Below the pieces are notes generated by a model, which saw only the letters and a list, made by a program, of their open reading frames with translations, made no database searches and had not been told where the DNA came from. Both the position numbers and the translations under genes were made by a program. This document shows positions 2,752 through 6,521 of a DNA stretch of 64,000 nucleotides, piece after piece. Source of the DNA: Ignavibacteriales bacterium. GTDB lineage: Bacteria > Bacteroidota > Ignavibacteria > UBA10030 > SZUA-254. Position 1 is the first letter of the stretch, and every line of letters starts with the position of its first letter. The stretch lies in NCBI GenBank assembly GCA_016214905.1, contig JACRMQ010000003.1, forward strand, positions 1 to 64,000, in the 5' to 3' direction.

Positions 2752-3909
2752 TCAATACAAAAACATCGGCTTGCCGAGGAGGTGAGCTACTTTTGGTTTG
2801 TATTGGTCGATGTCGTATAACTCGTCAACATCAACACGCTTTTTACCTTCTGTAATTATGTTTGCTGAAACAGTTGTGTATTTTCCATCGCGTAAAGCTA
2901 CCATTCTGCCAGATTGTTTTTTCAAAATCAAATCTGTTGCCAGGTAACCGTAGCTTGTAGAAACCATGAGATCGAGAGCGTCGGGTGCGCCGCTGCGCAT
3001 TAAGTATGCAATCTGTTGGTAAACAGTCCTTACACCTGATCTTTGTTCAATTTCTTTGGCAAGGTAATCGCCGATACCGCCGAGTTTTTTATGTCCATAC
3101 GCGTCGGCTTCGCCCGAAAGAATCATTTGTCCGCCAATCGGCTTTGCTCCTTCCGAAATTGTCATGATAGCATACTTGCTCGGGTTGCCATTCCTATCTT
3201 CGATCAAATATTTGACAAGCTTATCGGTATCAAAATCAATTTCAGAAATAATCGCGCGGTCAACACCTGCGAGATAAGCCGAGATGAGAGATGTTTCGCC
3301 GGAGTATCTTCCGAATAATTCCACAACCGCTATGCGCTCGTGAGAACCGGTTGGTGTGCGCAATGCGTGAAGGAATTCTACGCTGCGTGTAACTGCCGTT
3401 GAGAAACCGATGCAATAATCTGTGCCGTGAACATCGTTATCCATTGTTTTCGGGATGCACACAACCGGGAAACCTTCTTTATGCAAACGCACCGCGTAAC
3501 TTAAAGTGTCATCACCGCCGATAGCTATCAACGCACCGATCTGTAAGTGTTCAAGAACCCGAAGTATGTGCTTGGTGCAGTCGACAGTTTTTTCGTTTTC
3601 GGCAACCTGATAAGATGATTTCAAAAACTCCGGCACTTCATTGGGTTTAACTTTTGCCGGATTTGTTCGTGATGTATGCAAATACGTTCCGCCTGTTCTA
3701 TCGATTGTCCGAGTATTTGTCTTTGTCAGATGAACCAGATTTTCGTTGTATGATGTAGGGTCTTCAGGATTAAAATAAAGCAAACCCGCCCAGCCGCGTC
3801 GCAGACCAATCATCTCGTGGCCTTCTTCAGCCGCCCGGTATACAGCCGCTTTTATACATGGATTTAAGCCGGGAACGTCGCCGCCGCCCGTTAATATGCC
3901 AATTTTCAT
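2752..3909 (-). CDS. pfkA: 6-phosphofructokinase, probably pyrophosphate-dependent
   Basis: This 385-residue protein is a PfkA-family enzyme. It phosphorylates fructose 6-phosphate to the 1,6-bisphosphate in glycolysis. The N-terminus has [13 protein letters not shown]. The phosphoryl-donor site reads GGDDT at 131-135, and the catalytic loop reads PKTMDND at 153-159. ELFGRYSG at 197-204 corresponds to the substrate-binding MGR segment. In the family, GGDGS plus PGTIDND marks ATP users. An acidic residue in the first motif and Lys in the second mark pyrophosphate users and the mixed-substrate group III enzymes. This sequence has both pyrophosphate-type residues, so PPi dependence is inferred. 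Met replaces the usual Ile in the loop. It is a single gene with its own terminator, transcribed away from the sigma-factor gene at 4072. Confidence 0.92.
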
Positions 3910-4071
3910 TTTATTTCTCTGTAAATGTTTTAATTTTGTTCTAATTTCAGTATAAATTTAATCAAAACAGACTGATTATCAAAAAATCAGGTTTCTTGCA
4001 TTTCGCGAAAACTCTCACTATTTTCCGATTAACTTAGATATTCTCGGACTAAAATTCTATATGAGTGATTA

Positions 4072-5541
4072 ATGGAAATGATAGAGAATCCATTTTCTCT
4101 TTTTGAACAAGAAGATCGAAAGCTTTTCGAAAAAATTGCCGTTCATGACGAAGGAGCTTTATTTTCACTCCTTGATCGTTACTCACCATTTATGTTCAGT
4201 GTCTTGATGCGGATGATGAGATCGGTGGAAGATGCGGAAACGATAATTCATGATACATTTATTGAAATCTGGAACAAGAAAGAGAAATATGCCAAGAGCG
4301 ATGATATCACTTATTATGAACACCTTTTAAAAGTTGTTCGTGAACGTGCGTTATCAACAGAGCGATTGAAACATTTAAAAAAGCAGAGTCAACAACCCGG
4401 GCATCAAATTCTTCCTATTTATTCCGAGCACGTGTTATCGCAGCCGCCGAATATTCCGCTGCGGAGCGAAATATTGCAAAATCTGATTAATGTATTCTTG
4501 CAATTAACTGAAGAAGAACAGCAGGTGCTCGCGATGGCTTTTTATGAAGGATGGTCACAGCGTGAAATCGCCAAACGATTATCGATACCGGCATGGACGA
4601 TCAATTGGAGCTTGCGCAAAAGTTTAAATTCGATTGCGTCGGTTGTTTTTGGATTACATCCGGCGGATGATGAAACGCATCCCAAGAAATATACCGAAAT
4701 GTGTGCCGGTTATGTTGTAGGAATTTTACCGTCCGAAGATTTAAAAGAATTCGTCGATCATCGGGAAGAAAATTGTGTTACTTGCTCTGCAGAAATAGCA
4801 CGCTTGAAAAACGCGATTTTTTTGCTACCCTTCGGTTTACCGCAAATTGCGGTTTCCCCGGAGCTGCGAGATCGGATACAGTTTTCAATTCAGCTTGTTG
4901 AGGTTGTAAGAGCGAGCAATCAACCGAGAGAAGAAGCGCAAGAAGCGGAGAAGGTGGGTGCAATAACGGATGTAATAAAAGAATCTGGTGAAATTAAAAT
5001 TGAAAAAACCAGAGTATTTAAATGGTTACCGGTTATTTTGGCCGGTGCGCTCATTGTGAGTATTGCGTTGAATGTTTATTTCTTCTCAGATAGAAATAAA
5101 AACAATAGACCGGTTGATATAGATTCATCGAAAATCATTCTGCAACAAGATGTGGAAAAGAAAAATCTGCTTCTTGGAATTCTTGAAAAAGAAAAAATCG
5201 ATATCGTATTTCTAAAATCGGAACAAAAAAATAATAATCAATTCGGAAAAATAATCTGGGATCAGGTTACAAGGTCTGCTTTGCTTCAGGTTTCATTACC
5301 GATGTTGAATGATAAAGATTCAATTTATTCTCTCTGGCTAGTCACTGCTGATCATATGATCAAGGTTGGGAATTTCAGTAGCAGAGGAGACGATAAAAAA
5401 GAAAAAATATTCCGTCTTCAACTTCCAACCGATGTGGCAAGAAATGAGATAAAAGAATTTTGGATTACTCTTGAGCAGGATGAAGGATCAAGCAAACCTT
5501 CTTCCAATCTGATGCTGAAAGGTTACTCGAAAATAAAATAA
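4072..5541 (+). CDS. ECF-type sigma factor fused to a membrane anti-sigma factor
   Basis: One uninterrupted 489-residue frame joins two proteins that are normally separate. Residues about 25-72 look like sigma region 2 (DRYSPFMFSVLMRMMRSVEDAETIIHDTF in part). Residues about 140-190 look like region 4 with the helix-turn-helix WSQREIAKRLSIP. Residues 205-255 then match the anti-sigma domain, with CAGYVVGILPSEDLKEF and a zinc-type H230...C235xxC238. A linker leads to one membrane helix at about 318-338. Residues 350-489 resemble the extracytoplasmic RskA C-terminal domain (YSLWLVTADHMIKVGNF). The expected behaviour is a sigma factor tethered at the inner membrane and released by proteolysis, but this is inference. 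ATG 4072 lacks a clear ribosome site. Its stop abuts the stop of the convergent agmatinase gene. Confidence 0.88.
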   Translation: MEMIENPFSLFEQEDRKLFEKIAVHDEGALFSLLDRYSPFMFSVLMRMMRSVEDAETIIHDTFIEIWNKKEKYAKSDDITYYEHLLKVVRERALSTERLKHLKKQSQQPGHQILPIYSEHVLSQPPNIPLRSEILQNLINVFLQLTEEEQQVLAMAFYEGWSQREIAKRLSIPAWTINWSLRKSLNSIASVVFGLHPADDETHPKKYTEMCAGYVVGILPSEDLKEFVDHREENCVTCSAEIARLKNAIFLLPFGLPQIAVSPELRDRIQFSIQLVEVVRASNQPREEAQEAEKVGAITDVIKESGEIKIEKTRVFKWLPVILAGALIVSIALNVYFFSDRNKNNRPVDIDSSKIILQQDVEKKNLLLGILEKEKIDIVFLKSEQKNNNQFGKIIWDQVTRSALLQVSLPMLNDKDSIYSLWLVTADHMIKVGNFSSRGDDKKEKIFRLQLPTDVARNEIKEFWITLEQDEGSSKPSSNLMLKGYSKIK

Positions 5542-6453
5542 TTATCTTACAAAATAATTTATCATCTTGGAAACCAATTTTGCCGTCGTTAAATCGGGAT
5601 GGTGAAATCGTTCAATCGGGGCGAGTTCGACCACGTCGCATCCTACAACATGTTTCCGTTCTCCTATTTTTGCCAGCAGTCGCATTGTTTCATCCCAAAG
5701 TAATCCGTTCGGTTCGGGAGTCCCTGTCGAAGGCATGATAGATGGATCGAATCCATCAACATCGAAACTTACATACACATGATCGGATAATTTATCTAAA
5801 GGAAAATCGTACCAGTATTTTAGAAGTTTAGCGTATTTGCCACCGCGGATTTCATGAGCGTAAAGAGTTGTAACTCCGCGTTCTTTAATGAATTCTGCTT
5901 CTTCGATAGACTGAGCGCGTATGCCGACTTGCACGAGTCGGGGTGGATCTAAATATTCGCACACCCGCGCCATCACAGATGCGTGTGAGAATTTTGTGCC
6001 TTGATATTCATCCCGCAGATCGGAATGCGCGTCGATATGAAGAACCGAAAGATCGCGGTAACGCTCTGCGTATGCCGCTATCGATGCCTGAGATATAGTA
6101 TGTTCGCCGCCCAACATTACCATAAATTTATTAGCGGAGATTAATTTCTTTGTAGTAGAATAAATTAATTCCAGCGCGTTTTCGGGAGATCCGGCGTTAA
6201 CGTCGAGCGGTTCAAGTGTCGCGATGCCGAATTGTCTGTGCACTTCCCGTCCTGTTTCTTCATCATAGAATTCAACGAAATGCGACGCATCCAGAATTGC
6301 CGAAGGACCTTTCGATGTCCCTCCGCCGTAGCTTACGGTTCTTTCGTACGGAACGGGAACGATGACGACGCGAGAGTTTTCGAACTGGCAAAATTCCTCT
6401 TCAATTCCGAGAAAATTTTCTTCAACTGGTAATGTCTTCCACATATATTTCAT
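5542..6453 (-). CDS. speB: agmatinase (ureohydrolase family)
   Basis: This arginase/agmatinase-family enzyme hydrolyses agmatine to putrescine and urea in polyamine synthesis. All manganese ligands of the family are visible. Counted from a TTG codon at 6462, they are GGEHT (His121), DAHSD (Asp144, His146, Asp148) and SFDVDGFDP (Asp234, Asp236). The catalytic-loop KFSHAS (His160) is also present. The start is placed at ATG 6453 (MKYMWKTL) rather than the upstream TTG; another ATG nine bases further in (6444) is possible. The length of about 303 residues is normal. SpeB rather than arginase is preferred because of the GGGTSKGP region and overall resemblance, but the substrate cannot be proved from sequence. 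No other polyamine gene is in the window. Confidence 0.9.
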   Translation of the reverse strand: MKYMWKTLPVEENFLGIEEEFCQFENSRVVIVPVPYERTVSYGGGTSKGPSAILDASHFVEFYDEETGREVHRQFGIATLEPLDVNAGSPENALELIYSTTKKLISANKFMVMLGGEHTISQASIAAYAERYRDLSVLHIDAHSDLRDEYQGTKFSHASVMARVCEYLDPPRLVQVGIRAQSIEEAEFIKERGVTTLYAHEIRGGKYAKLLKYWYDFPLDKLSDHVYVSFDVDGFDPSIMPSTGTPEPNGLLWDETMRLLAKIGERKHVVGCDVVELAPIERFHHPDLTTAKLVSKMINYFVR

Positions 6454-6521
6454 CCGATGCAATTGATTTTTACGGTTGAAATATAATTGAATCGCTGCTG
6501 AAAAACAATTTTTTGCATATC

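Follow-up and report, generated by a model that had tools for sequence, protein, structure and literature searches.

An ECF sigma factor and an RskA-type membrane anti-sigma factor joined in one open reading frame in an Ignavibacteriales genome

Fusions of a sigma factor with an anti-sigma factor have already been described, in IutY (ECF243) and in ECF52, ECF48, ECF53 and ECF36 (PMC5411451, PMC8999054, PMC5826349). In IutY of Pseudomonas putida, an anti-sigma part that spans the membrane is attached to the C-terminal end of an ECF sigma domain; the protein belongs to cell-surface signalling by the siderophore aerobactin, and is activated by site-1/site-2 proteolysis, in which Prc and RseP release the sigma part (PMC5411451). 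ECF52 (SCO4117 of Streptomyces coelicolor) and ECF48/ECF53, which are described as actinobacterial, combine a sigma factor with a zinc-finger anti-sigma-like domain, one or more membrane helices and an outer domain (PMC8999054, PMC5826349). In the SigK-RskA system of Mycobacterium tuberculosis, RskA is cut by Rip1, and it can both activate and inhibit SigK (PMC7509140).

Here we describe a sigma/anti-sigma fusion from an Ignavibacteriales bacterium, encoded in a 64,000-nucleotide stretch of contig JACRMQ010000003.1 (the whole of the DNA analysed, called the window below); our literature search gave no paper linking Ignavibacteria with ECF/anti-sigma. Its overall design is that of IutY, but the anti-sigma half is RskA-type with a His-Cys-Cys motif, the protein has no Pfam match to the cell-surface-signalling anti-sigma domain of ECF243, and no receptor gene adjoins. 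It differs from the actinobacterial fusions in its origin, an operon of two genes within its own family (see below), and from ECF52 also in its end: ECF52 closes with a proline-rich region and a carbohydrate-binding module, neither of which is matched here, and an RskA_C sandwich takes their place. Another close counterpart is SigK-RskA (PDB entry 4nqw), which is the best PDB match of the sigma half in both sequence and fold, and shares the RskA_C domain and the closed arrangement of our model; however, SigK and RskA are two separate proteins, and the promoter-reading regions have diverged in the fusion protein. The arrangement is real and rare, and what is new is an RskA-type fusion formed by stop loss.

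The gene starts with ATG at 4072, ends with TAA at 5539-5541, and contains no internal stop. Its parts are as follows:

4072-5541, forward strand: fused sigma/anti-sigma gene, 489 aa, one open frame; the same stop-free frame is present in the sister species (L037/L008)
4150-4392, forward strand: sigma region 2 (residues 27-107), from Pfam and NCBIfam, helices in the structure model
4321-4395, forward strand: diverged region 2.3-2.4 (residues 84-108), HLLKVVRERALSTERLKHLKKQSQQ, canonically WLVTMTRNRAIDRLRSK..., from the alignment
4468-4650, forward strand: sigma region 4 (residues 133-193), from Pfam and the alignment, with a diverged -35 recognition helix AWTINWSLRKSL, canonically LGTVKSRMRKAL
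4642-4683, forward strand: fusion junction (residues 191-204), aligned with the sigma stop codon of five relatives
4678-4920, forward strand: anti-sigma domain (residues 203-283), four helices, from NCBIfam, the alignment and the model
4759-4785, forward strand: zinc-type motif H230-C235-C238
5026-5100, forward strand: membrane helix (residues 319-343) with the hydrophobic stretch WLPVILAGALIVSIALNVYFF, from the alignment and AlphaFold
5191-5526, forward strand: RskA_C outer domain (residues 374-485), from Pfam and AlphaFold, which models a beta-sandwich at residues 376-485

The sigma half matched the NCBIfam model sigma70-ECF (TIGR02937; residues 33-188, E=1.4e-16) and Pfam Sigma70_r4 (E=1.5e-8), both above the cut-off, and Pfam Sigma70_r2 at the cut-off (E=3.6e-5, 23.9 vs 24.0 bits). 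In the other half, RskA_C fell slightly below its cut-off (E=4.2e-6, 27.5 vs 29.4 bits), and NCBIfam NF052375 (residues 212-479, E=2.7e-14) reached 53.7 bits against a cut-off of 100. The same domains were matched in the aligned relatives, with E-values down to 1e-22 for region 2 and 9.4e-25 for RskA_C. PADLOC gave a single weak match only, which we disregarded. With regions 2 and 4 only, and with matches to sigma70-ECF models, the protein is by its predicted domains an ECF sigma factor (group 4). The anti-sigma half is RskA-type, with an anti-sigma domain in the cytosol, a single membrane helix and RskA_C as its outer domain, and is orthologous, by synteny, to unfused RskA-type genes. Its cytosolic domain is a putative zinc-binding anti-sigma (ZAS) domain by its His-Cys-Cys motif (H230-x4-C235-x2-C238), which the alignment shows to be invariant in all eight aligned relatives. 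Thus a sequence-only reading of the window, which had placed both ECF regions (2 and 4) in one frame with a His-Cys-Cys anti-sigma domain, a membrane helix and an RskA-like outer domain, is confirmed by the open frame, Pfam, NCBIfam and AlphaFold.

Since most relatives have two genes here, one could suspect that an assembly or sequencing error had deleted a stop, and the same reading held that relatives with always two separate genes would point to such an artefact. Most relatives are indeed unfused, but the sister species G001 (PNNN01000036.1, Chlorobiaceae bacterium SW.3.66; same genus, a separate MAG) has an equivalent fused frame, likewise uninterrupted by a stop, at 75% identity; its junction aligns and there is no frameshift, so an artefact is ruled out for practical purposes. 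Over the whole fusion, the window's genome (G000) and the sister species differ by a dN of 0.144 and a dS of 0.872 (dN/dS about 0.16), and all 25 residues of region 2.3-2.4 are identical despite saturated synonymous sites; by these substitution rates the fusion is under purifying selection within the genus. We also considered a separate anti-sigma product made from an internal start. Close to the junction, G000 has a single in-frame ATG, at residue 210; this codon encodes threonine in the sister species, and such a product is therefore unlikely.

The neighbouring genes place the fusion in a conserved setting:

2752-3909, reverse strand: phosphofructokinase (pfk), the conserved left neighbour (PF00365, E=3.8e-68; synteny)
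5542-6462, reverse strand: agmatinase/arginase-family gene, the conserved right neighbour (PF00491, E=3.7e-69; synteny)

The gene order pfk, sigma/anti-sigma, agmatinase, DUF2085, a DUF4199-like gene and an M1 peptidase is kept across the family where contigs reach, and, judged by this order, the locus is orthologous in every relative whose contig extends far enough. Antisense to phosphofructokinase, at 3043-3318 (forward strand), lies a 91-aa frame that is open in relatives too, most likely as a shadow of the conserved coding strand.

In five relatives, each of a different genus (G005, G006, G008, G009, and G011), the sigma and anti-sigma genes are separate, in the same frame and divided by one stop, a configuration that the sequence-only reading had missed. 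The junction stop is TAA, TAG or TGA, and the anti-sigma ATG or GTG follows 0-1 codons later; in G002 the two genes are in different frames and share 4 nt. In the genus of the window's genome a sense codon stands in place of the stop, and the alignment is continuous through the junction with one extra residue. Because five relatives share the frame and the single junction stop, the fusion, on the aligned junctions, arose by loss of the sigma stop in a sigK-rskA-like operon. The shared frame and lone stop might also suggest that readthrough of the stop is the ancestral state, and that the fused genes make constitutively what the relatives make by readthrough. We regard this as very improbable and have set it aside: the stops differ among relatives, the anti-sigma start lies within 0-1 codons, several junctions carry the ribosome-site-like sequence AGGAGAAG, and in G002 the frames of the two genes differ, with a 4-nt overlap. 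The unfused junctions look like ordinary, if predicted, translational coupling. Among the unfused orthologues (junctions L009-L013) there are several in which the codons of the sigma C-terminus (LQEKM, caggagaagatg) also form a ribosome-site-like sequence, and this may explain the constant frame and spacing at unfused junctions. The locus shows clearly how a sigma/anti-sigma operon of two genes was turned into one gene through loss of a stop.

Another genus of the family, represented by G003, has a second stop-free fusion, so that a check proposed with the sequence-only reading, whether relatives have the same fusion, gave a positive answer both within the genus and beyond it. Order-wide (98 genomes), class-wide (391 genomes) and phylum-wide (395 genomes) surveys gave full-length stop-free matches in G000, G001, and G003 alone, and no further fusion. 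In a separate class sample of 294 genomes, the longest RskA_C frames examined measured 427-506 aa and contained long linkers but lacked a sigma domain, and a database-wide scan with the query P0001 alone returned the sister species as the sole match. The tree of five flanking genes groups G000, G001, G002, and G006 (97/98), with G003 outside. We tried a single origin of both fusions: a clade of the fused genomes is rejected by the flanking genes (p-AU 0.0076), though not by the sigma/anti-sigma sequences alone (p-AU 0.113), among which G003 is a long branch. Because the flanking-gene tree rejects the fused clade, it is likely but not certain that the G003 fusion is independent of that in the window's genus. 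Sister genera, whose orthologues in this position are unfused, offer natural before/after comparisons.

AlphaFold models the cytosolic part (residues 1-289) with a pTM of 0.82; overall confidence is lower for the full-length model (pTM 0.53), which has a low-confidence, probably flexible stretch at about residues 294-314, between the anti-sigma domain and the membrane helix. In the PDB, the cytosolic model is matched best by RskA-bound SigK (4nqw; TM 0.78, normalised to the target), and against sigma factors in initiation complexes the model gives TM <=0.43 and rmsd >20 A. The SigK-RskA-like packing makes it likely, as far as the model goes, that the sigma half is inhibited intramolecularly by its own anti-sigma domain. 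The domains, their conservation and the structure model together support the proposal that a sigma factor and its membrane anti-sigma factor reside in one tethered polypeptide.

We consider it probable that an ancestral two-gene operon lost the sigma stop and so gave rise to a single self-inhibited, membrane-tethered sigma factor that is freed by proteolysis. For the inhibition, signal, proteolysis and targets of the fusion protein, we infer the following course. The ancestral operon would have held an ECF sigma gene and an rskA-type anti-sigma gene in one frame, until the sigma stop was lost. In the fusion protein, the anti-sigma domain would lie folded back between the two sigma regions, 2 and 4, blocking RNA polymerase binding, until an outside signal, or a redox or metal change at the His-Cys-Cys site, triggered cleavage, first of the outer domain and then within the membrane. 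The freed sigma(-anti-sigma) fragment would be trimmed or rearranged, and would then act at its own promoters. Release by regulated intramembrane proteolysis, and with it the activation by proteolysis alone that the sequence-only reading proposed, is plausible by analogy, since IutY is freed by Prc and RseP (PMC5411451) and RskA is cut by Rip1 (PMC7509140). The genome encodes three site-2 protease homologues, but their presence says little, because a control search found homologues in 14 of 14 reference genomes as well. Because cleavage within the membrane would leave the inhibitor covalently joined to the sigma part, one has to assume that the fragment is processed further or that inhibition is weak; since RskA can also activate SigK, the released fragment might by analogy be active with the anti-sigma domain still on. 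How a sigma factor is freed from a joined inhibitor, and what a fixed 1:1 covalent linkage does to signalling, are questions that such a gene raises.

A tethered sigma factor could also be active without proteolysis, if a conformational or redox/zinc switch opened the anti-sigma domain and left the sigma half anchored. The kept H-C-C motif, the probably flexible stretch before the membrane helix, and the dual action of RskA on SigK (PMC7509140) agree with such a switch, but the fused precedent, IutY, requires Prc and RseP (PMC5411451), and our literature search gave no sigma factor working while anchored; we think this improbable. We give as little credence to a more specific version, a sigma factor that stays anchored permanently, has gained a new promoter specificity in co-evolution with the inhibitor it carries, and is switched on when the H-C-C domain opens, not when the protein is released.

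The sigma half of the fusion protein has changed strongly, a divergence that had escaped the sequence-only reading, although its description of the fusion was correct. Sigma branch lengths are 1.80 in the window's genus, 1.79 in G003, 1.54 in G002, and 0.86 in G006, compared with 0.24-0.37 for the family's canonical relatives; the branches of the flanking genes, at 0.30-0.65, differ far less than those of the sigma half. Among columns at 90% conservation, region 2.1-2.2 keeps 8 of 9, region 2.3-2.4 keeps 3 of 5, and region 4.2 keeps 6 of 11 (region 4.1 in G000 keeps one of three, too few columns to judge). About half of the conserved promoter-reading columns (regions 2.4 and 4.2) are thus lost, and the derived sequence is conserved within the genus. 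The divergence is not simply due to fusion, because G002 and G006 are diverged and unfused. Why promoter-reading residues change so fast is a further question raised by this locus.

These long branches and lost positions, together with the lack of any match to the fusion protein in G004 and G007, two relatives of good genome quality, could mean that the system is degenerating or repurposed; the sigma half would then have ceased to read promoters, and the fusion would be either a product of tolerated decay or a membrane protein with no role beyond binding RNA polymerase. Decay would be expected to break frames, yet both halves are intact, dN/dS is low in the genus, and region 2.3-2.4 is unchanged over its whole length; we hold this reading to be unlikely, though somewhat less so than anchored action. 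Within the self-inhibited, proteolytically freed sigma factor that we prefer, the strongly diverged DNA-reading regions count against the putative sigma activity.

Upstream of the gene, conservation points to one more feature:

3996-4025, forward strand: promoter-like element TTGCATTT-N-AAAnTCTC-NN-TATTTTC (also written TTGCATTT...AAAGTCTC..TATTTTC), from conservation upstream of the sigma gene

The element precedes the sigma gene in eight family genomes, with 1-4 mismatches to the consensus, and was found upstream of the orthologues in L008, L009, L010, L011, L012, L014, and L015. It is kept in fused and unfused members alike, and therefore gives no evidence of a changed autoregulated promoter. 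A regulon search with this element in five genomes returned one exact match in each, before the sigma gene itself, and we infer no regulon from it. A related form, TTGCTTTT...CTTCTCCGTAGATTC, lies upstream of the gene in the order's other families. A second near-identical site, TTGAATATT[CT]TCCAAAATCTTGTTAATTT, which is similar to the promoter-like element, occurs in three genomes (G000:C6:206071-206099, G001:C17:14451-14479, and G006:C7:113584-113612).
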